64,000 bases of DNA, from the NCBI RefSeq assembly GCF_900176375.1, contig NZ_FWYF01000001.1, forward strand, positions 310,001 to 374,000. The letters are read 5' to 3'. Made by a program: the position numbers and the translations under genes. This DNA is from Reichenbachiella faecimaris (GTDB lineage: Bacteria; Bacteroidota; Bacteroidia; Cytophagales; Cyclobacteriaceae). Every line of letters starts with the position of its first letter. Positions within the stretch are counted from its first letter, which is position 1. Shown here piece by piece: positions 50,793-63,976 of this stretch. The notes under the pieces were generated by a model, which searched no databases, had not been told where the DNA came from, and saw only the letters and a list, made by a program, of their open reading frames with translations.

Positions 50793-51242
50793 TCAATTTA
50801 TGAATTGACTTGTATGATTTTTGGTATTGACCTTAGAGATGATTTCTTCGATAAGACCAGTCTCACTTATCAAGAATGTAGTTCTAACCGTACCCATATA
50901 CTTACGGCCAAATGTTTGTTTTTCGGCCCAAGTGCCATATAAATTATGAACCATTTTATCTGGATCAGCTATCAGGTCAAAAGGAAGTTCAAACTTGTTG
51001 ATGAATTTAACATGCGATTTTTCAGTATCCGTACTGACACCAAGCACTATGTATCCTTGCTTCAACAAGGAATCATAGTTGTCTCTCAAATTGCATGATT
51101 GAGCCGTACACCCTGGGGTATTGTCCTTAGGATAAAAATAAAGCACTACTTTTTTACCTAGATAATCGGAAAGTTTGATACTCGATCCATCTTGAATCTT
51201 AGCCTCAAAATTTGGTGCCTTGTCACCTACTTTTAAATTCAT
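50793..51242 (-). CDS. bcp: Thioredoxin-dependent thiol peroxidase (Bcp/PrxQ)
   Basis: Peroxiredoxin Q/BCP of 149 residues that reduces hydrogen peroxide and organic hydroperoxides in the cytoplasm. The peroxidatic Cys45 is in FYPKDNTPGCTAQSC and the resolving Cys50 is five residues on, the alpha-type PrxQ arrangement. The Thr of TPGC and a downstream conserved Arg (TVRTTFLI) complete the site. It is the last gene of the kinase-regulator-DksA-like-bcp run, 19 bp after the zinc-finger gene, which links it to the oxygen-responsive cluster. Confidence 0.95.
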   Translation of the reverse strand: MNLKVGDKAPNFEAKIQDGSSIKLSDYLGKKVVLYFYPKDNTPGCTAQSCNLRDNYDSLLKQGYIVLGVSTDTEKSHVKFINKFELPFDLIADPDKMVHNLYGTWAEKQTFGRKYMGTVRTTFLISETGLIEEIISKVNTKNHTSQFIN

Positions 51243-51261
51243 ATTTAATCTGCGTTGAAAT

Positions 51262-51588
51262 TCAAGCGCAATTTACACACTTATTTGATTGAGGCATGAG
51301 TAGGATTCTACCCACAGGAATAGGCCGCTTGCAACGGATACAAATCCCAAAATCCTTATCGTCTACTTTAGATAGTGCCACCTTTAACTTGTTCAACTTC
51401 TCTTCTGATTTTCTCAATGAAGCTTCATTGATACTTTTGTTGTTGATTGCATCCATCCTGCTTACTCTTCCAATCGCGTTTTCTGGTGATATGGGTTGTG
51501 TGAAATCTCTGAGAACAACAATGTCTTGCTCAACCTTGATAAGCTCTTCTCTAATAATCTCTTTGATTTTCTGCTTGTCCAGTTCCAT
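51262..51588 (-). CDS. TraR/DksA-type zinc-finger protein
   Basis: A 108-residue DksA/TraR family protein. An N-terminal coiled-coil (about residues 5-75) is followed by a C4 zinc finger with Cys83, Cys86, Cys104 and Cys107 in CIRC and CVNC. It is shorter than Escherichia coli DksA and closer in size to small Bacteroidota TraR/DksA proteins. The DksA coiled-coil tip DxxDxA is not obvious, so action in the RNA polymerase secondary channel is likely by family but unproven. It lies 12 bp after the receiver-CRP regulator gene and 19 bp before bcp. Confidence 0.9.
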   Translation of the reverse strand: MELDKQKIKEIIREELIKVEQDIVVLRDFTQPISPENAIGRVSRMDAINNKSINEASLRKSEEKLNKLKVALSKVDDKDFGICIRCKRPIPVGRILLMPQSNKCVNCA

Positions 51589-51600
51589 ATCAGTAAGATA

Positions 51601-52659
51601 CTAATACCCTCTGGAAATGATAATTGTCAATTCATTCATGTCAAGCAAAGTGATCTGATTAGACTTGATCTCAATCAATCCCTCTTTCTTAAAATCAGAC
51701 AGCGTGCGAATCACAGATTCTGGTGAAGTACCCACTATATTCGACAGGTCTTCTCGAGAAAATTGAAATTTCTTACCCTCTGCACCATAATTTTTTTGAA
51801 CTGTAAGTAACGCTTCTGCCACACGTTGTCTCACAGAGTTATAAGCAATATGAAGCATTTTTTCCTCCTGATCCTTTAGATTTCCCGAGAGAATTTTAAT
51901 AAATCTAGAAGCTACTGATCGATCCTTATAAATCAATTGTAAGAAATCGTCTTTAGGAATATAGTAGGATTCACTATCCTCTATGGCCATGGCGGAGTCA
52001 CTATGATCTGATTGCGTAATGAGATCGTTGAACCCAATAAAGTCACCTGGGCCATATAGGCCAGTAATTAGCTCCTTTCCGTCTTTATTGGTTTTGTATG
52101 TTTTTATTTTGCCTTTATTGATAAATATCAGATAGTTAGGATAATCTCCTTCGTAGTACAGATTCGTTTTCTTTTTGTGGTGTCTAATACGCTTTTCTTT
52201 AGACAATTCTTTCAGACTCTCAATTTCTTTTGCATCATTGAAAAAACTATCTAATCCTGAAATATTAGCATCATATTCACTTTGAATTTGCTTGGTTCGC
52301 TTTAGTCTGGCTTCTACTGCTCCAAGCAATTCAATATCATCAAATGGCTTGGTCAGATAGTCATCTGCACCCAAATTCATTCCCCTTCTAATATCCATTT
52401 TCTCAACCTTTGCTGTAAGAAAAATGAAGGGTATGTGGGCTGTAGACGGATTTTTAGAAACAATATGCAGTACACCGTAGCCATCCAAAACTGGCATCAT
52501 TATGTCACATATAATCAAATCAGGTTTTATACTTTTTAGTATGTCAAGCCCTTCCTTTCCATTGCTTGCCACCATGACTTTATAACCAGACAATTCTAAA
52601 ATTTCGGCCGTATTTTCGCGTACCTCTACATTATCTTCAATCAATAGTATCTTATTCAT
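51601..52659 (-). CDS. Response regulator with CRP/FNR-type output domain
   Basis: A 352-residue hybrid. Residues 1-122 are a CheY-like receiver (acidic DN at 9-10, phospho-Asp52 in ICDIMMP, Lys104 in LTKPF). About 140-265 is a cyclic-nucleotide-binding-type beta roll (YYEGDYPNYLIFINKGKI). About 270-350 is a CRP/FNR winged helix. The recognition helix TSPESVIRTL keeps Glu314 and Arg318 at the FNR Glu209/Arg213 positions and lacks the Arg used by CRP to read TGTGA, which predicts a TGAT-type half site. It has only one Cys, so it cannot hold an FNR iron-sulfur cluster. It overlaps the kinase gene by 8 bp. It is the probable regulator of the nearby FNR-type sites. Confidence 0.92.
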   Translation of the reverse strand: MNKILLIEDNVEVRENTAEILELSGYKVMVASNGKEGLDILKSIKPDLIICDIMMPVLDGYGVLHIVSKNPSTAHIPFIFLTAKVEKMDIRRGMNLGADDYLTKPFDDIELLGAVEARLKRTKQIQSEYDANISGLDSFFNDAKEIESLKELSKEKRIRHHKKKTNLYYEGDYPNYLIFINKGKIKTYKTNKDGKELITGLYGPGDFIGFNDLITQSDHSDSAMAIEDSESYYIPKDDFLQLIYKDRSVASRFIKILSGNLKDQEEKMLHIAYNSVRQRVAEALLTVQKNYGAEGKKFQFSREDLSNIVGTSPESVIRTLSDFKKEGLIEIKSNQITLLDMNELTIIISRGY

Positions 52660-53908
52660 TTTTTAAAGATTTGATGCTTAATATGAATGTTGAACCTTTG
52701 CCCTCTGTACTTTCAAATTTTATATGCCCCCCTATCAGTTCAAGGTATTTTTGTACAATATTTAATCCAAGACCTGTTCCTTGGATATGAGAAGCATTAT
52801 TCGCTCTGAAAAATTTATTGAAAAGATGTTTTTGATCAACCTTAGGAATACCAATTCCTTTGTCAATGACTTTGACCAGAAGGTCATCTTTATCTAACTC
52901 CACTTCTAAAACCACCCTTTCTCCTTCTGGAGAATACTTTATTGCATTGGATATCAGGTTGGCAAGTACTTGCTTTAGTATCTGCGGATCTGTGTAAAAT
53001 ATGGCATCAGGAGTCGAGCATTTCAAATCCAGTGACTGATCCTTTTTCATGAGTTCGCTCATTTCATCAGTGATCTCATGCAAAAAATTGCAAATTAAAA
53101 CCTCTCTACCAGCCACATTCATTTTGCCTGCATCCAATCTATCCATGGAGAGAAAATCATTGAGGATATTTGTCAATTCGCCTACACTGGATTTGATACG
53201 ATTGATATGCTTCATTTTTTTTTCTTTATTATCCTCTGATATATACTTACCTATCAGGGAGACAGAAGATAAAACCGCACTGAGCGGCGTTCTGAATTCG
53301 TGAGAAGCCATAGATACAAATCGCGTTTTCAGTTCATTGAGCTCTTTCTCTCTTTCCAAGGCAATTCTTGCTTCATTTTCAGCTTTGATCCTCTCTTTGA
53401 TTTGCAGTTCTAGATTTTTATTGGATTTCTGAAGCCCTTCAATGGCTTCATTCAATTTCTTTGTTCTGTCTTTTACGCGCTGTTCCAGTTCCGCAGCATA
53501 ACTGATCAACTGCTCCTCGCTGCGCTGAAGTTCTAGTTCTGCCTTTTTGCGCATGGAAATATCTATCACGTAAGCAATTGTCATGGCTACCCCATCTACT
53601 TCAGCTACGTTCAAACTGATTTCAACAGGGAAAGTGGTGCCATCTTTTTTGAGTGCTACTAGGTCTCTACCCACTCCCATCTGTCTGGGTTCTGGCTTTT
53701 TTTCGTAATTCGACCTCACTGCCTCGTGAGACTTTCGAACTTTTTGCGGCATTAGATGCTCTATTTTCATACCTACTAACTCATTAATCTTATAACCAAA
53801 CAAATTTTCACTCGATGGATTTGCCAGGACAATTTCCCCCTTATTGACCAGGAGAATGCCTTCCACACAGGAATTAAATATGCTTTGATAGGTATTAGGA
53901 CTTTTCAT
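52652..53908 (-). CDS. PAS-domain histidine kinase, FixL-like oxygen-sensor candidate
   Basis: A 418-residue kinase with no membrane segment. The N-terminal PAS domain (about residues 5-120) has the FixL-like run LFGYKINELVG, LMPQKVRKSHEAV and GVGRDLVALKKDGTTFPVEI. His61 aligns with the FixL heme-ligand His and Arg81 with the distal Arg. A coiled-coil follows (125-195), then the DHp with His203 in SMASHEFRTPL, and the ATPase domain with NLISNAIKYSP, DKGIGIP and GTGLGLNIV. It is coupled to the CRP-type regulator and divergent from the usp-ccoI-ccoS genes. Heme binding is inferred: the His motif also occurs in PAS domains not shown to bind heme. Confidence 0.92.
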   Translation of the reverse strand: MKSPNTYQSIFNSCVEGILLVNKGEIVLANPSSENLFGYKINELVGMKIEHLMPQKVRKSHEAVRSNYEKKPEPRQMGVGRDLVALKKDGTTFPVEISLNVAEVDGVAMTIAYVIDISMRKKAELELQRSEEQLISYAAELEQRVKDRTKKLNEAIEGLQKSNKNLELQIKERIKAENEARIALEREKELNELKTRFVSMASHEFRTPLSAVLSSVSLIGKYISEDNKEKKMKHINRIKSSVGELTNILNDFLSMDRLDAGKMNVAGREVLICNFLHEITDEMSELMKKDQSLDLKCSTPDAIFYTDPQILKQVLANLISNAIKYSPEGERVVLEVELDKDDLLVKVIDKGIGIPKVDQKHLFNKFFRANNASHIQGTGLGLNIVQKYLELIGGHIKFESTEGKGSTFILSIKSLKNE

Positions 53909-53928: not shown

Positions 53929-53936
53929 CAAATTTA
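53929..53936 (-). promoter_or_regulatory. Putative -7 element of the kinase-regulator operon
   Basis: The minus strand reads TAAATTTG, an exact TAnnTTTG match, 21 bp before the kinase start. The FNR-type site at 53960-53971 would then be centred about 42 bp upstream of transcription start, the class II activator position, allowing autoregulation. Confidence 0.4.
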
Positions 53937-53959: not shown

Positions 53960-53971
53960 TGACATTTATCA
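53960..53971 (+). promoter_or_regulatory. FNR-type site upstream of usp-ccoI-ccoS
   Basis: TGAC-ATTT-ATCA, one mismatch from TGATNNNNATCA. Its centre (53965.5) is 51.5 bp before the start of a TATTTTTG -7 box and 82.5 bp before the usp start codon. It also lies between the divergent kinase gene and usp. Confidence 0.6.
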
Positions 53972-54016
53972 TATTCTCACTTGATCGTTGGCATAAATAA
54001 TAATTAGACCCCAGCC

Positions 54017-54024
54017 TATTTTTG
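54017..54024 (+). promoter_or_regulatory. -7 promoter element of usp-ccoI-ccoS
   Basis: TATTTTTG, an exact TAnnTTTG match 24 bp before the usp start codon, and 51.5 bp downstream of the centre of the FNR-type site. No good -33 box is present, as expected for an activator-dependent promoter. Confidence 0.6.
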
Positions 54025-54047
54025 AAACCAACTTCAACGTCGTCAGA

Positions 54048-54599
54048 ATGAATACAAATCGCACGCTGCTTATACCCATTGATTTCTCAAATGCCTCGAA
54101 ACTAGCGGTCAAATACGCATTGTCCAACGAATATAAAGAAGGCGACCAATTAATCTTACTCCACTGCTATAGACTTATATCTGACGACTATACTTCCTAT
54201 CGTGATGCACCCCGCAAACTCAAGATGGCCATTGAAAAAAAACTAGAAATTAAGTTTAATCAATTTAGCAGAACCTTAGATCTTGATAAATACGGTCCAA
54301 ACATAAAATTTGGAATGAAATTAGGATTTACAGCTAACGGCATACATACCTTGTCCTTTGAATGCCACATTGACCTGATAGTGTATGCATTAAAAATTGG
54401 TAAAAGCAATCACGAACTCATTGAACTATTAAGTTCTGGATCTACTCCTGTGATGCTGATAACAGAAGCCATAAATCTCAAAAAAAACATTCCCAATGTG
54501 GAAAAAACCATAAGCAGCTCGGATTTCTCCAATCAGCCTCAGCACTTTTTGAATGAAATTTACAAACGTCCTAATACCCCATTTTTAGTGACACTTTAA
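54048..54599 (+). CDS. Universal stress protein, single-domain
   Basis: A 183-residue UspA-like protein. The start LLIPIDFSNASKLAVKYAL is the typical first strand and helix. LILLHCYRL is the second strand and HIDLIVYALKIG the fourth. The usual ATP-binding GxxGxxxxxxxGS loop near the end is degenerate (ELLSSGSTPVMLI), so nucleotide binding is uncertain. It is the first gene of a likely operon with ccoI and ccoS, 46 bp before ccoI. The FNR-type site upstream suggests induction at low oxygen. Confidence 0.85.
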   Translation: MNTNRTLLIPIDFSNASKLAVKYALSNEYKEGDQLILLHCYRLISDDYTSYRDAPRKLKMAIEKKLEIKFNQFSRTLDLDKYGPNIKFGMKLGFTANGIHTLSFECHIDLIVYALKIGKSNHELIELLSSGSTPVMLITEAINLKKNIPNVEKTISSSDFSNQPQHFLNEIYKRPNTPFLVTL

Positions 54600-54645
54600 A
54601 TGGAACTTTTCAATTGATAATAATTAATTTTAATTAAAACTTTCT

Positions 54646-57039
54646 GTGCCACAATCAGCGACTAAAGATAAAACCCTCTGCTACCACTGCGGAGACGATT
54701 GCAATGAAAAGCCTATATGGTATCATGCACATTCCTTTTGTTGCTATGGCTGTCAGACCGTCTTTGAGCTATTAACTGAAAATGATCTTTGTGATTATTA
54801 CACGTTTGAAACCAACCCAGGTAACCAGCTAAGTCACTTTATAAAAGACAAATATTTGTTCCTTGATAATCAGGAAATAGTAGATCATTTACTTGATTTC
54901 AAATCAGATCAATTGGCCAAAATCACATTGAGCATTCCATCAATTCACTGTAGTAGCTGTATCTGGCTTTTGGAAAACATTCAACGGTTTGATCATGGTA
55001 TTATTCAGTCAAAAATCAATTTCGCTAAGAAAAAACTAGCGATAGACTACAATCCTACTAAAACTAACCTCAGAAAGCTCGCCGATTTACTATACCAGCT
55101 CAGCTATGAGCCTGAAATATCACTGGATCAAAAAAAGGATATACCAGCAGATAAAAACAAAAGTGAGAATCTGAAAATTGGAATAGCGGGTTTTTGCTTT
55201 GGCAACATTATGCTGCTAGCGTTCCCTGAATATTTAGGAATAGAAATGGATTCTGAATTCATAAACTACTTCACTTATCTCAGTTTGGGTTTGTCGTTAC
55301 CTGTGTTATTCTATTGCTCTAGCATTTTTTTCATTTCTGCCATCGCAGGCATTCGTAAAAAATTCTTGAACATAGACTTGCCCATTGCTATTGGAATTCT
55401 CGTGCTATTTGTAAGAAGTCTGTTCGAAATATTCACTGGGATTGGCCCAGGTTATTTGGACTCTATGTCTGCTTTGGTGTTCTTCTTATTGATTGGACGA
55501 TGGGTACAGAGCAAAACCTATGAGGGGTTAGCTTTCGATAGGGATTTCAAGTCTTATTTCCCTCTTGCCGTTCAAAAAATTGAAAATGAATTGAAAGAAA
55601 GCGTGCTAGTGTCACAACTCAAGATCAACGATCTCATCGAGGTAAGAAATGAGGAAATCATCCCATGTGATGCTGTTTTGGTGAGCAAACAGGCTATAAT
55701 AGATTACAGTTTTGTCTCAGGAGAATCAGAACCCACTGCTATAGACAAAGGAGCCCAGATTTATGCAGGAGGAAGAATAAAAGGTACGGCTACGCAGATG
55801 ATTGTGACTAAGGCTGTGTCTCAAAGTTATCTAACTCAACTCTGGAATCATTCCTCATTTGACGACCCAACTGGACAAAGCACCCCTTCACTCATTGATA
55901 AGGTGAGTCAGTACTTCACACCTATCATCTTGCTCATAGCCCTCACTGCTGGTGTGTACTGGTTTTTTATGGATAGTTCGAAAGTGCTTTTCGTGGTATC
56001 TTCTGTATTGATTGTAGCCTGTCCTTGTGCATTGGCCCTTGCGGCACCTTTTACCTTGAGTTCGACAATGAATACGCTAGGACTGCAGAACATGTACCTG
56101 AAGGGAACTCATATCATTGAAAAAATATGGCAAATAAAAAGAATTGTATTTGACAAAACCGGCACCATAACCACGCTATCAAATGAGAAAATAGAGTGGC
56201 ACGGAAGAAAGTTAAGTACCATAGAAAAAGAAAGAATTCAAGTCTTGGCCTCTCAATCCGTGCATCCATTGAGCGTGCAACTCTCAAATTACCTGCGTGA
56301 CAACAAAACTAACAAGGAGGTACTACAATTTGATGAACAAAAGGGACAAGGTATCTCTGGTGTAGTAGATAATTGTCAAATGAAAATAGGCTCTCCAGAT
56401 TTTGTGGGACTTTCTATTTCGAATATTGAAGGTTCTATCATTGGCCTAAAAGTCGACAAAGCAGTTCTTGGCTACTTCTTAGTTAGAAATGGATACAGAG
56501 ATGGACTCAAAACTATGATTAGCCAACTGGAAAACGATTATCATTTTACTGTACTATCTGGGGATAATGATCATGAATTCAGCAATTTAACTTCTTTATT
56601 CCCTGAAAACACACCCTTAATTTTCAATCAAACCCCAGCCGATAAACTAAAGGTCATACAAGCGCTTGAAGTTAAAGAAAAAACCATGATGGTGGGAGAT
56701 GGATTGAACGATGCAGGCGCTCTCAAAAGCAGCTTTATTGGAGTGTCAGTAGCTGAGCACAGATCGAGCTTTACTCCTGCGAGTGATATTATTATACTGG
56801 GCAATCAGCTCACGCAATTACCCAAATTTTTGACTTTAATTCATCACTCAAAAAAAATAATAATGGCTGGATTCTTAATCTCCTTTCTCTACAATGTTAT
56901 AGGTTTATCACTAGCAGTAGCTGGATTCATCACACCAGTAATCGCTGCTATTTTGATGCCATTGAGTAGCATATCTGTAGTCGCTTTATCTACCTTAGGT
57001 ATTAAATATTTAAGTCACTCATTAAAACTGAATGCATGA
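54646..57039 (+). CDS. ccoI: Copper-translocating P1B-type ATPase for cbb3 oxidase assembly
   Basis: A 797-residue heavy-metal P-type ATPase of the CcoI/FixI group, which supplies copper for the CuB site of cbb3 oxidase. The extra N-terminal Cys-rich segment has CYHCGDDC and CCYGC (about residues 11-40). An HMA domain follows with SIHCSSCIW. The membrane part carries the CPC motif in VACPCALALAAPF (near 455-467). The phosphorylation site is DKTGTIT (near 504) and the hinge is MVGDGLNDAGAL. The start is the GTG at 54646 (VPQSATKDK). The stop overlaps the ccoS start by 4 bp. Confidence 0.95.
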   Translation: MPQSATKDKTLCYHCGDDCNEKPIWYHAHSFCCYGCQTVFELLTENDLCDYYTFETNPGNQLSHFIKDKYLFLDNQEIVDHLLDFKSDQLAKITLSIPSIHCSSCIWLLENIQRFDHGIIQSKINFAKKKLAIDYNPTKTNLRKLADLLYQLSYEPEISLDQKKDIPADKNKSENLKIGIAGFCFGNIMLLAFPEYLGIEMDSEFINYFTYLSLGLSLPVLFYCSSIFFISAIAGIRKKFLNIDLPIAIGILVLFVRSLFEIFTGIGPGYLDSMSALVFFLLIGRWVQSKTYEGLAFDRDFKSYFPLAVQKIENELKESVLVSQLKINDLIEVRNEEIIPCDAVLVSKQAIIDYSFVSGESEPTAIDKGAQIYAGGRIKGTATQMIVTKAVSQSYLTQLWNHSSFDDPTGQSTPSLIDKVSQYFTPIILLIALTAGVYWFFMDSSKVLFVVSSVLIVACPCALALAAPFTLSSTMNTLGLQNMYLKGTHIIEKIWQIKRIVFDKTGTITTLSNEKIEWHGRKLSTIEKERIQVLASQSVHPLSVQLSNYLRDNKTNKEVLQFDEQKGQGISGVVDNCQMKIGSPDFVGLSISNIEGSIIGLKVDKAVLGYFLVRNGYRDGLKTMISQLENDYHFTVLSGDNDHEFSNLTSLFPENTPLIFNQTPADKLKVIQALEVKEKTMMVGDGLNDAGALKSSFIGVSVAEHRSSFTPASDIIILGNQLTQLPKFLTLIHHSKKIIMAGFLISFLYNVIGLSLAVAGFITPVIAAILMPLSSISVVALSTLGIKYLSHSLKLNA

Positions 57040-57200
57040 AAATTCTCGTCATACTTATTGTGGTAAGTTTGGTGATTGCACTAGTTTTTTTAGCGCTTTT
57101 TGTTTGGTCCGTGAAATCAGATCAGTATGAAGATACAGATTCTCCAGCCATGAGGATTTTCTACGACGACAAACCTAGACCCTCGAACGTCAAGGATAAT
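57036..57200 (+). CDS. ccoS: cbb3-type cytochrome oxidase assembly protein CcoS
   Basis: A 54-residue membrane protein. It begins with one membrane helix (MKILVILIVVSLVIALVFLA), followed by LFVWSVKSDQYEDTDSPAMR and IFYDDKPRP, the conserved CcoS pattern (W-x-x-KSxQYDD, then a short acidic stretch). It is needed for cofactor insertion into cbb3 oxidase. It overlaps ccoI by 4 bp (ATGA). The FNR-type site of hemN begins 5 bp after its stop. Confidence 0.93.
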
Positions 57201-57204
57201 CAAT

Positions 57205-57216
57205 GATGCAAATCAT
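57205..57216 (+). promoter_or_regulatory. FNR-type site upstream of hemN
   Basis: TGAT-GCAA-ATCA, a perfect TGATNNNNATCA palindrome centred 75.5 bp before the hemN start codon. A -7-like TTGTTTTG begins 50.5 bp downstream of its centre. Confidence 0.65.
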
Positions 57217-57260
57217 GTTTTCCAATGATTTAGGACTTTAGAAATCAGGCAATGAGATAG

Positions 57261-57268
57261 TTGTTTTG
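57261..57268 (+). promoter_or_regulatory. -7-like element of hemN
   Basis: TTGTTTTG, one mismatch from TAnnTTTG, 18 bp before the hemN start codon. Its spacing from the FNR-type site is one base shorter than at the other three promoters. Confidence 0.4.
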
Positions 57269-57285
57269 CTACAAACATAAATCTC

Positions 57286-58644
57286 ATGACAACTTCTCTT
57301 ATTCGCAAATACAACATACCTGGCCCAAGATACACGAGCTACCCTACCGTGCCCCTCTGGAAAGAAGAATTAGACCTAGATCATTGGAAACAACAACTCA
57401 AGCAAACCTTCCACCTCACAAATAAGAATGAAGGCATCAGTCTCTACATCCACCTACCATATTGTGAAAGTCTGTGTACTTACTGTGGTTGCACGACGCG
57501 TATCACAGTTAATCACGCGGTAGAAAAACCGTATATTGACACCGTACTGAAAGAATGGGAACTGTATTTGAATTTATTTGAGGATGTCCCTGAATTGACA
57601 GAAATCCACCTAGGTGGTGGCACACCGACTTTCTTTGACCCTAAAAATTTGGCTAGACTTATTGAAGGTATCAGGCAAACTGTGACGGTCAGGGCAGGTG
57701 CCAAATTTGGTTTTGAAGGTCATCCAAACAATACAACAGAAGAACATTTACAGACCTTATATGATCTAGGGTTTAAACGTGTCAGTTTTGGCATTCAAGA
57801 TTTTGACCCTACAGTTCAGAAGATGATCAACAGAGTTCAAACTTATAATCAGGTCGAAAAAGTTGTGGATCAAGCTAGAACCATAGGCTATGAATCTATC
57901 AACTTTGATTTGATATATGGACTTCCCTTGCAAACTAAAAAAAGTATTACAGACACCTGTCAAAAAGTTCAAATTCTAAAACCTGATCGAATTGCTTTCT
58001 ACAGTTATGCACATGTGCCTTGGGTTAAACCCGGCCAACGCATGTTTACTGAGAAAGATCTACCCAGCCATGAAGAAAAAAGAGAACTCTATGAACTAGG
58101 CAAGCAGTTGCTCACTGAGATCGGATATGGGGAAATTGGAATGGATCACTTTTCATTACCTACAGATTCATTGTATATGGCATCTCATAATGGAGATATG
58201 CATCGCAATTTTATGGGATACACCACGCATCACAGTACGGTTTCCATAGGACTTGGTGTATCAGCCATTGGAGATTCTTGGAATGCTTATGGGCAAAACC
58301 TAAAAAGAGTAGAGGAATATAAAAAAGTGGTAGAGACTGGTGAATTTCCTATATTCAAAACTCACGTCCTCACAAAAAAGGAATCTTTTGTTCGCAAACA
58401 CATCACTAACCTCATGTGCCAATTTGAGACCTCCTGGGAACCGTCAGATTTAGCTACTGAAGTATTCAGCTCTGTTGACATCAAACTGACTGATATGATC
58501 GCGGATGATTTGGTCAGGCTCATACCAGGTCGTTTGACAATCACCAAAAAAGGCAGGCCTTTTGTGAGAAATGCTTGCATGGCCTTGGATATCCACTTGT
58601 GGAATAAAACTGATCAACAGCAAAAATTCAGTCTAACGATCTAA
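57286..58644 (+). CDS. hemN: Oxygen-independent coproporphyrinogen III oxidase
   Basis: A 452-residue radical-SAM enzyme that makes protoporphyrinogen IX without oxygen, for heme synthesis at low oxygen. The iron-sulfur Cys residues are C60, C64 and C67 in HLPYCESLCTYCGC, with the extra C69 as in true HemN. The GGGTPTF SAM-binding motif follows. The length is right for HemN proper, against the shorter HemW. It sits between the cbb3 assembly genes and the oxidase genes and supplies their heme. Confidence 0.96.
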   Translation: MTTSLIRKYNIPGPRYTSYPTVPLWKEELDLDHWKQQLKQTFHLTNKNEGISLYIHLPYCESLCTYCGCTTRITVNHAVEKPYIDTVLKEWELYLNLFEDVPELTEIHLGGGTPTFFDPKNLARLIEGIRQTVTVRAGAKFGFEGHPNNTTEEHLQTLYDLGFKRVSFGIQDFDPTVQKMINRVQTYNQVEKVVDQARTIGYESINFDLIYGLPLQTKKSITDTCQKVQILKPDRIAFYSYAHVPWVKPGQRMFTEKDLPSHEEKRELYELGKQLLTEIGYGEIGMDHFSLPTDSLYMASHNGDMHRNFMGYTTHHSTVSIGLGVSAIGDSWNAYGQNLKRVEEYKKVVETGEFPIFKTHVLTKKESFVRKHITNLMCQFETSWEPSDLATEVFSSVDIKLTDMIADDLVRLIPGRLTITKKGRPFVRNACMALDIHLWNKTDQQQKFSLTI

Positions 58645-58647
58645 ACC

Positions 58648-58659
58648 TGATCTAAATCA
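58648..58659 (+). promoter_or_regulatory. FNR-type site upstream of the usp pair
   Basis: TGAT-CTAA-ATCA, a perfect TGATNNNNATCA palindrome beginning 4 bp after the hemN stop and centred 89.5 bp before the usp start codon. A TACCTTAG -7-like box starts 51.5 bp from its centre. Confidence 0.65.
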
Positions 58660-58704
58660 TTTTTTGATTTGAGATTGCTCAGAGGATTGCCCTTAGGACT
58701 ACTC

Positions 58705-58712
58705 TACCTTAG
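58705..58712 (+). promoter_or_regulatory. -7-like element of the usp pair
   Basis: TACCTTAG, one mismatch from TAnnTTTG, with the same TAnnTTAGTG extension as at the ccoN promoter (60730). It is 31 bp before the start codon. Confidence 0.5.
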
Positions 58713-58742
58713 TGTCATTAAATAACCAAACACAATTAAATC

Positions 58743-59585
58743 ATGCAAACAATAGCTGTTCCATACGATTTTAGTGAGTACGCAGAGGCCGCATTAGATT
58801 TTGCCATCCAGATCGGAGAAAAAACCAATGCTACTATCAGGCTCATTCATGTGATAGAATATCCGCTCGCCACAACCTTTAATGTAACGGGTGAAGTTGA
58901 AGAATATGAGCCCATGGATAAGATTTATGCCCTTGAACTGATCAAAAAAACCAATGAGAGAATGGCAAAAGTCATATCAGACCACAATCAGAATGTTACT
59001 ATACAGCGAACCATACTCATGGGCAAAGCATACGATGGCATCACTGACCAAATAGAAGAAACTGAAGCTGACCTGATAGTAATGGGTACCAAAGGCGCTA
59101 CAGGCCTCAAAGAGCTCTTTGTAGGTTCTAACACAGAAAAAATCGTTCGTAACGCCCACTGTCCTGTTCTAGCCATTCATAAGAAATGTGATATCAATGC
59201 AATTAAAAATGTGGTCTTTGCCTCTGACCTTGATGGAACGCATAGCAAAGTATTACAGACCTTTAAGTATTATCAGGAGTTGTTTGATGCCAAACTACAT
59301 TTGGTGTGGGTAGACACTCCACATAATTCTGTAAATGGTGACCTAGCAAAAGAGAGACTTAAAGCTCTGGCCATTGATAATCACTTGAAAAATTACGAAG
59401 TGCACGTAACCAAAGCATTCCAACCAGAAGAAGGCATACTAACTTTTGGATGGCAGATAAAAGCAGACCTGATTGCCATGAGCACACATAGTCATAAAGG
59501 ACTCATTCATTTATTTGTAGGCAGTGTGGCTGAAGATGTGGTAAACCATAGCAACCTTCCAGTATGGACTTGTACAATCAAATAA
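58743..59585 (+). CDS. Tandem-domain universal stress protein
   Basis: A 280-residue protein with two Usp domains. The first runs to about residue 145 with AVPYDFSEYAEAALDFA and the nucleotide-binding run MGTKGATGLKELFVGSNTEKIVRNAHCPVLAIH (cited in short). The second, to the end, has VVFASDLDG and MSTHSHKGLIHLFVGSVAEDVVNHSNLPVW. Both keep the GxxG...GS ATP-binding pattern. It is followed 7 bp later by a second tandem usp gene. It is probably induced with cbb3 oxidase under microaerobic conditions. Confidence 0.93.
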   Translation: MQTIAVPYDFSEYAEAALDFAIQIGEKTNATIRLIHVIEYPLATTFNVTGEVEEYEPMDKIYALELIKKTNERMAKVISDHNQNVTIQRTILMGKAYDGITDQIEETEADLIVMGTKGATGLKELFVGSNTEKIVRNAHCPVLAIHKKCDINAIKNVVFASDLDGTHSKVLQTFKYYQELFDAKLHLVWVDTPHNSVNGDLAKERLKALAIDNHLKNYEVHVTKAFQPEEGILTFGWQIKADLIAMSTHSHKGLIHLFVGSVAEDVVNHSNLPVWTCTIK

Positions 59586-59592
59586 AATCGTC

Positions 59593-60429
59593 ATGAAAAT
59601 AAATACTATTCTAGTCCCAATGGACTATTCACCTTGTGCAAAAAACGCTTTTGAAACGGCTCTGATTCTAGCAAAAAAGGCTCAGGCAAATATACAAGTA
59701 GTATCTGTGTCACACATGCCTCATATACACGCAGAGGTGGTCGGGGCAGCTAGCATTATCCAACCACTTCTTCAAGAGTATCATGAGCAATTAGACCAAC
59801 AATTCGAAGAATTAATTTCCTCAAGTAACATCGAAGAAGTTTCAGTAACAAACACTAAGTACAATGCTCCTTTACACGACGCCATATACAGCTGCACCAT
59901 ACAAAATGAATGCGACCTGATAGTCACTGGTACCAAGTCCCAGCAGGACTGGCTCACCCAGTTAGTTGGGAGCAATAGCATGGACATGGTCGAAAGAGCT
60001 AAAATCCCAGTTCTTGTCATTCCTGAGCGTGTTAAGTCACCTTCATTCAAGAAAATTGGTGTAGCCGTAGATTACTCAGATTTCACAGATCCTGAGATAT
60101 TAGCACCTCTTAGGGATTTTGCTACTTTCAATTTTTCATCACTTTGTTTTTTGAATGTGACAGAAAAGCAGCATAAGCTTTTCGTTTATGATGACGTAAA
60201 ACTGCGTATTTCCGACTATTTTAATGGTCTCAAGCAGTCTTACCACACTTTCACTGATAGCAGGCCACTTGATGAAATATTGAATGAGGCCATAAACGAT
60301 TTAGGTCTTGGCATGCTATTTATGCTTCCCAAAAACCACTCAATCATAGAAAGATTAATTGGAACAAGACATACCAAGTCCATGGTTAAGCATATCGCCA
60401 TACCTCTAATGACCATACACGAAAAATAA
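59593..60429 (+). CDS. Tandem-domain universal stress protein (second)
   Basis: A 278-residue paralogue of the preceding gene. The first domain begins ILVPMDYSPCAKNAFETAL and ends with TGTKSQQDWLTQLVGSNSMD, keeping the ATP loop. The second domain begins IGVAVDYSDF and its end, MLPKNHSIIERLIGTRHTKSMV, has a degenerate loop, so nucleotide binding may be limited to the first domain. It is cotranscribed with the preceding usp and the small PLDc_N gene that starts 8 bp later. Confidence 0.9.
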   Translation: MKINTILVPMDYSPCAKNAFETALILAKKAQANIQVVSVSHMPHIHAEVVGAASIIQPLLQEYHEQLDQQFEELISSSNIEEVSVTNTKYNAPLHDAIYSCTIQNECDLIVTGTKSQQDWLTQLVGSNSMDMVERAKIPVLVIPERVKSPSFKKIGVAVDYSDFTDPEILAPLRDFATFNFSSLCFLNVTEKQHKLFVYDDVKLRISDYFNGLKQSYHTFTDSRPLDEILNEAINDLGLGMLFMLPKNHSIIERLIGTRHTKSMVKHIAIPLMTIHEK

Positions 60430-60437
60430 CCTGAACT

Positions 60438-60605
60438 ATGAACGGAATTATTTTCGCATTGATTGCTTCAGCATTTGCCATTTGGGCACTCATTGCTGTC
60501 GCCAACAGCAAGCTAAGTACGAATAAAAAAATCCTTTGGTTTGCACTTATCATTTTAGTGCCTTTTATCGGCCCAATCGCCTACTGGTTCAGGTATAAAT
60601 ATTGA
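60438..60605 (+). CDS. Small membrane protein, PLDc_N domain
   Basis: A 55-residue protein with two membrane helices joined by a short basic loop. The second helix, KKILWFALIILVPFIGPIAYWF, is the signature of the phospholipase_D-nuclease N-terminal (PLDc_N) family, which normally precedes a catalytic domain but is found here alone, as is common for small proteins of this family. It starts 8 bp after the second usp gene. The function is unknown; its place in the cbb3 cluster hints at a membrane role under low oxygen. Confidence 0.8.
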   Translation: MNGIIFALIASAFAIWALIAVANSKLSTNKKILWFALIILVPFIGPIAYWFRYKY

Positions 60606-60672
60606 GTGCATAAATGACTCTTAAAACTGAATATTCTTTTTTTGAAATTACTGAACAGCAAACTGTTTCACA

Positions 60673-60684
60673 TGATATTAATCA
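60673..60684 (+). promoter_or_regulatory. FNR-type site upstream of ccoNO
   Basis: TGAT-ATTA-ATCA, a perfect palindrome extended to CATGAT-ATTA-ATCATG (60671-60686), centred 89.5 bp before the ccoN start codon. A TAATTTAG -7-like box starts 51.5 bp from its centre. Confidence 0.7.
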
Positions 60685-60729
60685 TGTTTTTGAATGATTA
60701 TAAAAATTCCAAGACCTGACATTGTAACT

Positions 60730-60737
60730 TAATTTAG
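60730..60737 (+). promoter_or_regulatory. -7-like element of ccoNO
   Basis: TAATTTAG, one mismatch from TAnnTTTG, at the same spacing from the FNR-type site as in the usp promoters. It is 31 bp before the start codon, identical to the usp pair. Confidence 0.5.
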
Positions 60738-60767: not shown

Positions 60768-62885
60768 ATGGAACTAGAAAAATTCAGCTATGACAATAAG
60801 ATTGTCAAGTACTTTACTATTGCCTCCATTGTATTTGGAGTGGTGGCTATGTTGGCAGGTCTGACTGCAGCTATACAGCTCTTCTACCCTGCTTTCAACT
60901 TCGACTTACAATACACGACATTTGGCAGAGTCAGACCGTTGCATACCAATGCCGTCATTTTTGCTTTTGTAGGCAATGCCATGTTTGCTGGTGTCTATTA
61001 CTCCATGCAAAGGCTCTTGAAAACCAGAATGTTCAACGACCTACTTTCCTGGATTCATTTCTGGGGATGGCAATTGATTATTCTAGCAGCAGCTATTACG
61101 TTACCCATGGGTTTTACGACCAGTAAAGAATATGCGGAATTAGAATGGCCAATTGATATCGCGATCACTTTGATTTGGGTGATTTTCGGAATCAACATGA
61201 TAGGGACGATTATCAAAAGACGTGAGCGTCACATGTATGTTGCCATTTGGTTCTATATAGCTACGTTCGTCACTGTAGCTGTTCTCCATGTTGTAAATTC
61301 CATGGAGATTCCAGTTACTTTATTTAAGAGTTACTCCTGGTACGCTGGTGTACAAGATGCATTGGTACAATGGTGGTACGGGCACAACGCTGTTGCATTT
61401 TTCCTAACTACCCCATTTTTAGGAATCATGTATTACTACCTTCCTAAGGCTGCCAATAGACCAGTATACTCCTATCGACTTTCGATCATTCACTTTTGGT
61501 CATTGATTTTTATCTATATCTGGGCTGGCCCTCACCATTTACTTTACACTTCATTACCAGACTGGGCACAGTCATTAGGCGTGGTATTTTCTATCATGCT
61601 CATCGCTCCATCTTGGGGAGGAATGCTCAATGGACTTTTAACTCTTAGAGGTGCTTGGGATCGTGTGAGAGAAGATCCAGTACTAAAATTTATGGTGGTG
61701 GCAGTGACTGCTTATGGTATGGCTACTTTTGAAGGCCCTATGCTTTCGCTTAAAAATGTAAGTGCCATAGCTCACTACACAGATTGGATTGTGGCTCACG
61801 TTCATGTAGGTGGTTTAGGATGGAATGGGTTTCTAATCTTTGGCATGTTCTATTGGCTTGTTCCCAAAATGTGGAAGACTGAACTATTTTCCAGAAATCT
61901 AGCCAATACACATTTCTGGCTAGGTACGCTAGGAATTATTTTTTATGCATTACCTCTATACATTGCAGGCATCACGCAGGCCTCTATGTGGAAGCAATTT
62001 GATGCAGAGGGATTCTTAGTTTATAAAAACTTCCTAGAAACTGTGGTTCAGATCTTACCCATGTACATGCTACGTGCAGTAGGTGGCAGTTTGTATTTGA
62101 TTGGTGTATTCATCATGATTTACAATTTGATTAAAACCGCAGGTATTGGATCTTTTGTAAGTGACGAAGAAGCTGAAGCGCCAGCCTTAGAAAAGAAAGA
62201 AATTACTGGCGGACACTGGCATAGCGTACTGGAAAGAAAACCTGTGATTTTTACTGCTTTGTCTTTAGTTGCCATTTTAATTGGTGGTATTATAGAAATG
62301 GTCCCTACGTTTTTGATCAAATCAAATGTCCCCACCATAGCTTCTGTAAAACCATATACTCCACTTGAATTGTTCGGTAGAGATATCTACATCAGAGAAG
62401 GTTGCAATAATTGTCACTCTCAGATGATCAGACCATTTAGATCCGAAACAGAGCGATATGGTGAATATTCTAAAGCTGGCGAGTTTGTTTACGATCACCC
62501 CTTCCTTTGGGGATCAAAGCGTACTGGCCCAGATTTAGCACGTGAAGGTGTGGGGAAACTAAAAAAATCTGATTCCTGGCATTTCTATCACATGCTAGAT
62601 CCTGCTCAAGTATCAGAAGGATCAATCATGCCTCCATACCCATGGCTATTTGAACAAAGCATAGACCAAGGCTTAACTGCTAGTAAAATCAATGCATTGA
62701 GGACTGTAGGTGTACCCTATCCAGATGGATATGAAGAAAGCGCTAATAACGATTTGCAAGCTCAGGCTAAAACCATCACAGACAATCTTGCAGCTGAAGA
62801 TATTGAGATATCAGGAGATGCAGAAATCATAGCATTGATTGCTTATCTACAAAGACTAGGAAAGGATATTACTGTAAAAGACTAA
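60768..62885 (+). CDS. ccoNO: cbb3-type cytochrome c oxidase fused subunits I and II
   Basis: A 705-residue fusion of CcoN and CcoO, the high-affinity terminal oxidase core in the inner membrane. The CcoN part (about 1-480) has heme and CuB ligands in RPLHTNAVIFAF (His59), WWYGHNAVAFFLT, GPHHLLYTS and HYTDWIVAHVHVGGLGWNG. A further membrane anchor near 505-525 leads to CcoO, whose single heme c motif is CNNCH (Cys546, Cys549, His550), followed by SQMIRPF. N-O fusions are usual in Bacteroidota. It is followed by ccoQ and ccoP. Confidence 0.97.
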   Translation: MELEKFSYDNKIVKYFTIASIVFGVVAMLAGLTAAIQLFYPAFNFDLQYTTFGRVRPLHTNAVIFAFVGNAMFAGVYYSMQRLLKTRMFNDLLSWIHFWGWQLIILAAAITLPMGFTTSKEYAELEWPIDIAITLIWVIFGINMIGTIIKRRERHMYVAIWFYIATFVTVAVLHVVNSMEIPVTLFKSYSWYAGVQDALVQWWYGHNAVAFFLTTPFLGIMYYYLPKAANRPVYSYRLSIIHFWSLIFIYIWAGPHHLLYTSLPDWAQSLGVVFSIMLIAPSWGGMLNGLLTLRGAWDRVREDPVLKFMVVAVTAYGMATFEGPMLSLKNVSAIAHYTDWIVAHVHVGGLGWNGFLIFGMFYWLVPKMWKTELFSRNLANTHFWLGTLGIIFYALPLYIAGITQASMWKQFDAEGFLVYKNFLETVVQILPMYMLRAVGGSLYLIGVFIMIYNLIKTAGIGSFVSDEEAEAPALEKKEITGGHWHSVLERKPVIFTALSLVAILIGGIIEMVPTFLIKSNVPTIASVKPYTPLELFGRDIYIREGCNNCHSQMIRPFRSETERYGEYSKAGEFVYDHPFLWGSKRTGPDLAREGVGKLKKSDSWHFYHMLDPAQVSEGSIMPPYPWLFEQSIDQGLTASKINALRTVGVPYPDGYEESANNDLQAQAKTITDNLAAEDIEISGDAEIIALIAYLQRLGKDITVKD

Positions 62886-62898
62886 AAGGAAAAAAATT

Positions 62899-63072
62899 AT
62901 GTTTAAATACTATTTCGAACAGGTAAATGGTGTGGAAATATGGCCAATTATTTCCTTATCCATCTTTTTTATCTTTTTTGTTGGCCTGCTGTGGTGGGTA
63001 TTCAAAGGAGTAAGCAATTCATACATTGATGAAATGAAAAATCTTCCGATCAATAAAACCCTTAAATCTTAA
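62899..63072 (+). CDS. ccoQ: cbb3-type cytochrome c oxidase subunit CcoQ
   Basis: A 57-residue protein. An N-terminal amphipathic part (MFKYYFEQVNGVEIWP) is followed by one membrane helix (IISLSIFFIFFVGLLWWVF) and a short charged tail. This size and topology, and its place between ccoNO (13 bp upstream) and ccoP (4 bp downstream), identify CcoQ/FixQ, which stabilises the oxidase complex. Confidence 0.88.
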   Translation: MFKYYFEQVNGVEIWPIISLSIFFIFFVGLLWWVFKGVSNSYIDEMKNLPINKTLKS

Positions 63073-63076
63073 TCAA

Positions 63077-63976
63077 ATGGCGAATATCAAAAAATATATT
63101 AAAGGGCTAGGGGTTTGTTTGATATTACTTCTTACAGGACCCATAACTTTTGCACAGACTGAAAGCCTAGGCATGATGGAATCACTTGATCCTTCAAAAA
63201 TCATGACCATTCTGGTTCTCATAGTGATGCTTTTGGTATTATTAGTGGCTTTTTACCTTCTAATCATCTTGCGATTCATGGTGAGAGAAGATGCCATCAG
63301 AAGAGCCAAAGAAAAGGGTGTGGAGTATGTGGAAGAACCAAGTGCCTGGTCTAAATTTTATGCAGGATTGACTGATGCTGTTCCTATTGAGCATGAAGCT
63401 ACAGTAGAACTAGATCACAATTATGATGGAATTCGTGAATTGGATAATCACCTACCACCCTGGTGGAAATACATGTTTTATGCCTCGATAGTCTTCGCAG
63501 TTGTCTACATGTTTATGTATCATATAAATGGTTCGCTTCCATTGCAGGTACAAGAATATGAAATAGCCATGGCCGAAGCTCAAGCTAATAAACCCAATGT
63601 TGAGGAAGGTAGTTCTATTGATGAATCCAATATTGTCTTCTCTGATGACCCAGTTGTATTAGCGAGTGGGAAGACTGTTTATGATAGAAACTGTGTCGCT
63701 TGCCATAAGGCTGCAGGTGAAGGGGGGATTGGCCCAAATCTTACAGATGACTATTGGTTACATGGTGGAGGTATTCAGGACATTTATAACACCATAAAAA
63801 ATGGTGTGCCTGATAAAGGTATGATTGCTTGGGGAGATGTACTTTCTCCATCCAAAATGAATGATGTTTCTTCCTACATTCATACCTTAAAAGGAACAAA
63901 CCCAGACAATGCAAAAGCACCTCAAGGTGATGTATATAAAGAAGAAGTACTGGCAGAAGAAGGGGCATCAGAATAA
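63077..63976 (+). CDS. ccoP: cbb3-type cytochrome c oxidase subunit III, single heme
   Basis: A 299-residue membrane-anchored cytochrome c. It has an N-terminal signal-like segment and membrane helix (to about residue 70) and a FixP_N-type segment with NLPPWW-like DNHLPPWWKYMFYASIVF (second helix, about 127-150). One cytochrome c domain follows with CVACH (Cys206, Cys209, His210) and a later Met ligand candidate in GMIAWG. Proteobacterial CcoP carries two heme c groups; only one CxxCH is present here, so electron entry is through a shorter heme chain. It follows ccoQ by 4 bp. Confidence 0.94.
   Translation: MANIKKYIKGLGVCLILLLTGPITFAQTESLGMMESLDPSKIMTILVLIVMLLVLLVAFYLLIILRFMVREDAIRRAKEKGVEYVEEPSAWSKFYAGLTDAVPIEHEATVELDHNYDGIRELDNHLPPWWKYMFYASIVFAVVYMFMYHINGSLPLQVQEYEIAMAEAQANKPNVEEGSSIDESNIVFSDDPVVLASGKTVYDRNCVACHKAAGEGGIGPNLTDDYWLHGGGIQDIYNTIKNGVPDKGMIAWGDVLSPSKMNDVSSYIHTLKGTNPDNAKAPQGDVYKEEVLAEEGASE

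Follow-up and report, generated by a model that had tools for sequence, protein, structure and literature searches.

Oxygen control of the cbb3 cytochrome oxidase has been worked out in Proteobacteria, and a gene cluster in Reichenbachiella faecimaris (Bacteroidota, Cytophagales) raises the question of which regulator, acting at which DNA site, would govern this enzyme in another phylum. The cluster lies in a 64,000-nucleotide stretch of contig NZ_FWYF01000001.1 (assembly GCF_900176375.1, positions 310,001 to 374,000 of the forward strand; hereafter the window, numbered from its first letter). An initial annotation had proposed that four promoters of the cluster share one architecture, an FNR-type palindrome at a fixed distance from a Bacteroidota -7 box. 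Sequence comparison gives good support to a co-regulated low-oxygen gene set with one fixed promoter geometry. We further propose that these genes probably form a compact microaerobic regulon under a shortened FixL-FixJ-FixK pathway, in which a tandem operator is read by a response regulator combining a receiver domain with a CRP-type DNA-binding part (REC-CRP), switched by an adjoining histidine kinase.

Each of the four palindromes and -7 boxes is present upstream of its likely transcription unit. The palindrome TGACATTTATCA (53960..53971) and the -7 box TATTTTTG (54017..54024, plus strand) precede usp1-ccoI-ccoS; TGATGCAAATCA (57204..57215, plus), overlapping the ccoS stop codon, and TTGTTTTG (57261..57268, plus) precede hemN; TGATCTAAATCA (58648..58659, plus) and TACCTTAG (58705..58712, plus) precede usp2-usp3-PLDc_N; and TGATATTAATCA (60673..60684, plus) and TAATTTAG (60730..60737, plus) precede ccoNO-ccoQ-ccoP. 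From palindrome centre to the first base of the -7 box, the spacing had been given as 51.5 base pairs (bp) for three promoters and 50.5 bp for hemN; the first value is correct, and the start of the hemN box has to be moved from 57205 to 57204, which brings the fourth promoter to 51.5 bp as well. The accompanying estimate that a chance 8-of-8 match occurs about once per window was too low. With both strands counted, TGAYNNNNATCA is expected 11-12 times from dinucleotide shuffles and was found 33 times, so that a lone palindrome has little meaning. Two further palindromes, at window positions 5821 and 20066, have a TGA 22 bp downstream and lack a -7 box at +57. Equal spacing, which had been taken as strong evidence for a regulon, does carry that weight: a palindrome followed after exactly 45 bp by TWNNTTWG occurs four times in the window, against a mean of 0.02 and a maximum of 1 in 300 dinucleotide shuffles, a comparison that is somewhat optimistic because TWNNTTWG was written to fit the four -7 boxes. 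Several motif definitions were likewise made post hoc, and the fairest tests are the offset histograms and the profile matches outside the training set described below; statistics throughout take genomes as independent, uncorrected for relatedness.

The palindromes do not stand alone. Exactly 22 bp further down, centre to centre, each is followed by a degenerate TGA-N6-TCA operator: TGATCGTTGGCA for usp1-ccoI-ccoS (53982..53993, plus), TGATTTAGGACT for hemN (57226..57237, plus), TGAGATTGCTCA, a TGA-N6-TCA, for usp2-usp3-PLDc_N (58670..58681, plus) and TGATTATAAAAA, with the first half-site only, for ccoNO-ccoQ-ccoP (60695..60706, plus). In all four promoters, 29.5 bp separate the centre of this second operator from the start of the -7 box. 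In the alignment of sites from the genus, the conserved columns +22 to +24 (TGA) and +32 (C) yield the same degenerate operator and, scored against the palindrome consensus, offset 22 reaches 5.45 of 8 (next-best offset 3.45; maximum of 2000 shuffles 3.86). Upstream of ccoN in 29 other genomes of the order, 24 regions contain the box and, with the five regions lacking it left out, offset 22 scores 5.75 of 8 (shuffle maximum 3.75); the 3' half-site of the second operator is usually the better kept, as judged by eye.

The same geometry emerges from the distances between boxes and TAnnTTTG in 79 REC-CRP loci outside the genus (632 boxes, with palindromes counted on both strands, promoters with two perfect boxes counted at both distances, and the genus member L090 excluded; L and G numbers are our labels for loci and genomes). 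Distances of 35 bp (31 times) and 57 bp (38 times) predominate, with 34 bp found five times and 58 bp seven times, at a mean of 1.36 per offset, and second boxes follow at offsets of 22 (117 times) and 23 (27 times), at a mean of 4.08. Five Markov resamples of these loci gave at most two at any offset, against the 31 and 38 observed, and no distance peak appeared in 13 genus stretches from outside the kinase cluster (62 boxes, mean 0.10). At least one promoter with box and TAnnTTTG at such a distance is present in 43 of the 79 loci. Some ccoN promoters have a single box, at +35 (L071, L075, L086), +79 (L089) or +80 (L082), positions that fit roughly 22-bp steps.

The TAnnTTTG -7 box of primary-sigma promoters in Bacteroidota is common to the window promoters and to Flavobacterium psychrophilum, for which part of one report places it at -12 to -5 (PMC9723704). 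If the box likewise starts at -12 here, the two operator centres fall at -63.5 and -41.5 relative to the predicted transcription starts, and the tandem would be a class II site at -41.5 with an upstream partner at -63.5. The single class I site near -61.5 that had been suggested is therefore set aside: there is a second operator 22 bp downstream, and with the -7 box at -12 the palindrome is centred at -63.5, not -61.5.

If this geometry matters, it should be kept by relatives, and the alignment that the initial annotation called for bears this out: in stretches from seven other genomes of the genus, eight genomes with the window, palindromes and spacing are kept in all seven. The box lies upstream of usp1/ccoI, hemN and ccoN in eight of eight genomes each (seven of seven besides the window; in L041 it stands directly before ccoI), and upstream of usp2 in five of the seven genomes that have the gene (four of six besides the window). 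This makes 29 genus sites including those of the window, the usp2 regions of L045 and L046 (no box) and of L041 (no usp2 in the stretch) being left out of the table; counted from the first palindrome base, the -7 box begins at exactly +57 in 24 of them and at +58 in two. The DNA between the promoter elements is not conserved across the genus, so that conservation of the elements is not mere similarity of close strains.

To look beyond the cluster, we built a profile from the 24 genus sites, leaving out the five of 29 without a -7 box at exactly +57. In the 4.7-Mb genome of R. faecimaris, it gives five matches at an expectation value (E) of 0.01 or less, the four cluster promoters and C4:600321-600390 (E 4.4e-5), the next match having E 0.07; the proposed complete-genome scan thus adds one site to the four. 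That site (L246) precedes a YceI gene (Pfam), followed by a gene without Pfam match that looks porin-like by eye. Across the eight genus genomes there are 33 profile matches; 25 fall inside the cco cluster, most of them being sites used for training, and eight lie elsewhere. Three of these eight came without loci, and the inspected set is the remaining five. Two lie before YceI genes in two species (L246, L292), each followed by the second gene of porin-like appearance, and one before a gene for a hemerythrin-domain protein, with the same promoter layout and a distal box matching at 7 of 8 positions (L291, G004, 1503-2009). The other two are doubtful: the match in L290 is partial, without a -7 box at +57, and the gene next to it matches Globin below the cut-off; that in L289 precedes a TonB_C protein, with TTACTTAG at +57 departing from the -7 consensus. 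With less strict boxes, matches outside the cco cluster were scattered. Because they were not part of the training set, the matches before the hemerythrin gene and the YceI genes of two species support a low-oxygen set.

The likely reader of these operators is encoded beside them. Divergent from usp1 lie a PAS histidine kinase (52652..53908, minus; Pfam PAS, HisKA, HATPase_c) and the REC-CRP response regulator, the likely activator (51601..52659, minus; Pfam Response_reg, cNMP_binding with E 2.4e-20 and HTH_Crp_2 with E 7.3e-17, domains that place it in the CRP/FNR family). The two frames overlap by 8 bp and so form one operon. Its -7 box, TAAATTTG (53929..53936, minus), lies 35 bp from the start of the palindrome TGACATTTATCA, which is thereby shared: distal (-63.5) for usp1-ccoI-ccoS and proximal (-41.5) for the kinase-regulator operon. 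In all eight genus genomes the usp1/ccoI palindrome, read on the minus strand, precedes a TAnnTTTG of this operon by 34-35 bp. This double use suggests self-activation and hence, as far as promoter layout can tell, positive feedback of the kinase-regulator operon in this genus.

By similarity, the kinase is predicted to be a FixL-type heme-PAS kinase that binds heme and is turned off by oxygen. The best match of its PAS domain in the PDB is FixL (E 4.7e-14), followed by DosP, and H61 and R81 align with the heme His and distal Arg of FixL, residues whose roles we take to be heme binding for the His and that of the distal Arg (Arg220 in B. japonicum) for the other. The heme His is present in 12 of 12 close kinases and in 59 of 74 wider kinases adjoining the regulator (74 of 80 loci; six without a usable kinase frame are left out, among them L090, where overlap of kinase and regulator is probably the sole cause).

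In the regulator, D52, E314, I317 and R318 are invariant in 14 of 14 sequences. Glu209 and Arg213 of the FNR recognition helix match TGA half-sites, and the E314/I317/R318 helix fits such FNR-type specificity. At the N-terminal positions where the aligned standalone proteins L003, L185, L203 and L205 carry cysteines, REC-CRP has none; a receiver domain stands in front, in place of the cysteine N-terminus. The NCBIfam Fnr model gives it 85 of 228 bits, far below the cut-off. We therefore rejected REC-CRP as an FNR proper, that is, a one-component iron-sulphur regulator. The label FNR-type holds for the operator; the adjoining regulator joins a receiver to a CRP part, is paired with a FixL-like kinase and appears to be, in effect, FixJ and FixK fused into one protein.

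Is this regulator found where the oxidase is? We sampled 194 genomes of the order, 193 without that of R. faecimaris, and REC-CRP (E <= 1e-75) is present in 79 of the 194, the latter included. Genomes with ccoN were taken as those with strong matches, 125 of the 162 passing E <= 0.001. Among these 125 other genomes with ccoNO, 70 have REC-CRP, and in 32 of the 70 no more than 15 kb separate it from ccoN; from the opposite side, ccoN falls inside the retrieved flank of 24 of 80 REC-CRP loci. Standalone FNR was defined by E <= 1.1e-48, a frame of less than 320 amino acids and a match starting at or before residue 23, among the matches listed, and another cut-off would shift some genomes. With these definitions, the distribution in the 125 ccoN genomes is complementary: REC-CRP only in 56, FNR only in 49, both in 14 and neither in six (Fisher p 2e-15, uncorrected for relatedness). 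The exclusion weakens when all 193 genomes are counted (both 18, REC-CRP only 60, FNR only 52, neither 63; p 0.002). The family of R. faecimaris itself shows both states, with REC-CRP only in G059, G113 and G179, FNR only in G167, G216, G154 and others, and both in G024; in R. faecimaris, the best match to the close FNR query is REC-CRP itself (E 4.4e-39). Relatives that lack REC-CRP encode an FNR-like protein that stands alone, carries N-terminal cysteines and has an almost identical recognition helix; in three stretches (L185, L203, L205) its gene is 4-8 kb from ccoN. From these comparisons, REC-CRP and the standalone cysteine-bearing FNR seem largely to replace each other on the same operator.

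The gene set itself fits microaerobic respiration, and the assignments made from the letters stand by Pfam or NCBIfam matches except for ccoQ, whose FixQ match is below cut-off. All genes are on the plus strand. The first unit comprises usp1, a universal stress protein (54048..54599; Pfam Usp), ccoI, a copper-type ATPase with a GTG start (54646..57039; Pfam E1-E2_ATPase, ATPase-cat_bd), assigned to cbb3 assembly by context and matching a heavy-metal P-type ATPase model below the NCBIfam cut-off, and ccoS (57036..57206; Pfam FixS). Next come hemN, an oxygen-independent coproporphyrinogen III oxidase (57286..58644; NCBIfam TIGR00538 above cut-off, Radical SAM), and a unit of usp2 (58743..59585; Pfam Usp), usp3 (59593..60429; Pfam Usp) and a small PLDc_N membrane protein (60438..60605; Pfam PLDc_N). 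The oxidase unit consists of ccoNO, a fusion of the catalytic subunit with CcoO (60768..62885; Pfam COX1 and FixO in one frame), the probable ccoQ (62899..63072; FixQ E 0.001, below the Pfam cut-off) and ccoP (63077..63976; Pfam FixP_N, Cytochrome_CBB3). The CcoN-CcoO product is a single protein of 705 residues, and in the order most strong matches span almost the full length. By tblastn, ccoQ and ccoP are kept in six of the seven genus stretches, the seventh ending inside ccoN. Immediately beyond the 3' end of the kinase-regulator operon, the minus strand (window 50793-51588) encodes two proteins, one a peroxiredoxin (AhpC-TSA), the other of the DksA/TraR zinc-finger type. Further along the same strand, at 39320-50563, an open frame of 3747 residues, rich in Asp repeats and ending in a C-terminal tail of the Por secretion system (Pfam Por_Secre_tail), reads as a giant secreted protein; it contains several chance palindrome matches.

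Taken together, we envisage the following sequence of events. When oxygen is scarce, it would dissociate from the heme of the FixL-like PAS kinase, which would then phosphorylate the receiver domain of REC-CRP at D52. The phosphorylated REC-CRP dimer would bind the tandem operator, near-perfect TGAYNNNNRTCA at -63.5 and a weaker version at -41.5 on the same helix face, as an activator rather than a repressor. The dimer at -41.5 would contact RNA polymerase in the manner of a class II activator, and the strong distal site would help to load it. The output would comprise ccoNOQP, ccoI and ccoS (copper and assembly), hemN (oxygen-independent heme synthesis), the universal stress proteins and the distant YceI operon. 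Through the shared usp1 palindrome, acting as the -41.5 site of the kinase-regulator operon, the system may feed back positively on itself in this genus.

Several observations weigh against this proposal. At ccoN, the tandem operator is about as frequent with REC-CRP (14 of 36 loci) as without it (13 of 33), so that the operator alone does not name the regulator, and these counts rule it out as a marker of REC-CRP; by class, it occurs in 11 of 31 REC-CRP-only, 13 of 32 FNR-only and three of five loci with both, and in none of one with neither. No such promoter lies within 260 bp of ccoN in 20 of the 36 and 15 of the 33 loci; some of these ccoN genes sit directly behind a ccoS-like frame (by eye, for example L080 and L088). 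The Arg220 equivalent is absent from two of the 12 close kinases and present in only 27 of the 74 wider ones. The second operator of the window ccoN promoter keeps only TGA, two of the eight genus ccoN promoters score 0-3 there, and three of five usp2 sites lack the -7 box at +57. Outside the genus, the 200 bp before the kinase start contain such a promoter in only eight of 51 loci (those with a placed kinase start, kinase matches beginning after residue 12 being left out), which leaves self-regulation unsupported as a general trait of REC-CRP operons. Finally, the R. faecimaris genome encodes a distant standalone CRP (L003, G000:C7:1111836-1112570) with N-terminal cysteines and an E-x-V-I-R helix, which could bind the same sites.

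This last protein is the basis of the alternative that survives best, though we consider it unlikely: that the operators are read mainly by L003 through an iron-sulphur cluster, the kinase and REC-CRP being secondary or acting elsewhere. L003 is encoded in all eight genus genomes, its E-Q-V-I-R helix is close to the E-S-V-I-R of REC-CRP, and other Cytophagales have a cysteine-bearing FNR without REC-CRP and yet the same operator at ccoN. Its gene, however, is about 0.75 Mb from the cco cluster on the same contig, and the operator is shared with the REC-CRP operon, not with the L003 gene: seven of eight L003 orthologues have no box within 500 bp upstream, and the sole box is at -338. L003 is also only about 31% identical to the FNR near ccoN in G167. 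Moreover, eight genomes of the order with a tandem box at ccoN (G059, G113, G179, G040, G091, G077, G105, G131) carry REC-CRP, and it is their best match to the FNR query, although no search for a distant CRP like L003 was made there.

Joint use of the tandem operators by both regulators, each with its own site or each at its own oxygen level, strikes us as quite unlikely. They have the same recognition residues, the two sites are of unequal strength, and REC-CRP and a close FNR occur together in 14 of the 125 ccoN genomes; the general pattern, however, is replacement rather than coexistence, and no evidence here separates the sites by regulator. We regard as improbable the idea that only the distal palindrome is bound, as a class I site at -63.5, the bases 22 bp downstream being another promoter element such as an RNA polymerase contact or a variant of the -33 element that Bacteroidota promoters carry. 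The degenerate second sites of the window, with one half-site at ccoN, would suit this explanation, but the second element has the same TGA-N6-TCA dyad, the 117 second boxes at offset 22 among the 632 boxes of other Bacteroidota match at 7-8 of 8 positions, and in three ccoN promoters the only box is the proximal one, 35 bp before the -7 box. Chance, or duplication of one promoter by shared ancestry without regulation, is hardly credible even though all four promoters lie inside one 7-kb cluster, since the spacers are unconserved while the elements are kept and the geometry recurs in distant genera far above the Markov resamples.

Regulation by the kinase and REC-CRP thus remains the reading we prefer, and its parts have counterparts in known systems. 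FixJ consists of a receiver and a LuxR-type output. In the FixLJ-FixK2 cascade, FixJ turns on the gene of FixK, and rhizobial fixK2 is auto-repressed (PMC9104804), whereas promoter geometry in Reichenbachiella suggests self-activation. A related cascade with the same core targets, the hFixL-FxkR-FixK route, is described for Rhizobium in part of another report (PMC7888657). The likeness to FixL-FixJ-FixK2 of Bradyrhizobium extends to a FixL-type heme-PAS kinase (here as predicted), a response regulator, a CRP/FNR activator and cbb3 oxidase targets. The difference is that FixJ and FixK are separate there, whereas here the receiver and the FixK-like DNA-binding part are in one chain, so that phosphorylation would act directly on operator binding. 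With receiver and Crp output in one chain, the system is cascade-like and was not counted as a member of the FixLJ-FixK cascade.

Class II promoters of FNR offer the second likeness. In E. coli, the operator of these promoters is centred at -41.5. Sphingopyxis granuli has Fnr boxes at -41.5 for ccoN and uspA and at -42.5 for hemN2, as given in an excerpt of that study (PMC7713065), so that the gene set is the one seen here and the operator position the one predicted here. Reichenbachiella differs in the TAnnTTTG -7 box, in the stronger second operator at -63.5 with 22-bp steps, and in a neighbouring regulator without iron-sulphur cysteines. In gene set, operator type and predicted class II geometry, Reichenbachiella nevertheless matches the FNR/FixK regulons of Proteobacteria. 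Closer to home, the standalone FNR of other Cytophagales (L185, L203, L205) has a close recognition helix, E-T-V-I-R or E-S-A-I-R, and its N-terminal cysteines point to direct sensing, whereas here a kinase and a receiver domain take that place. In F. psychrophilum, cbb3 is up-regulated under oxygen limitation, and the main text of that report contains neither 'crp' nor 'fixk' (PMC9723704). Open-access literature, at the level of titles and abstract starts and among the matches listed, contained no regulator or operator of cbb3 in Bacteroidota and, with subscription journals mostly outside this scope, no description of a REC-CRP fusion under a FixL-like kinase; both are weak evidence.

If our proposal is correct, it would supply a regulator, an operator and a promoter geometry for Bacteroidota that are directly testable, and an oxygen-sensing system of two genes, shorter than the rhizobial one. 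For the wider group we give about even chances to a more general picture: that across much of Bacteroidota a single tandem operator, with sites at -63.5 and -41.5 and 22-bp steps, governs low-oxygen respiration while the sensors have repeatedly been swapped, some lineages using an iron-sulphur FNR and others a FixL-like kinase together with a receiver-CRP fusion, with operator, DNA-reading residues and targets unchanged. In Reichenbachiella the sensor operon would itself be under the control of this operator, so that a phosphorelay of one step would also feed back positively. If so, these bacteria would show in nature how one sensor can take the place of another while the operator stays the same.

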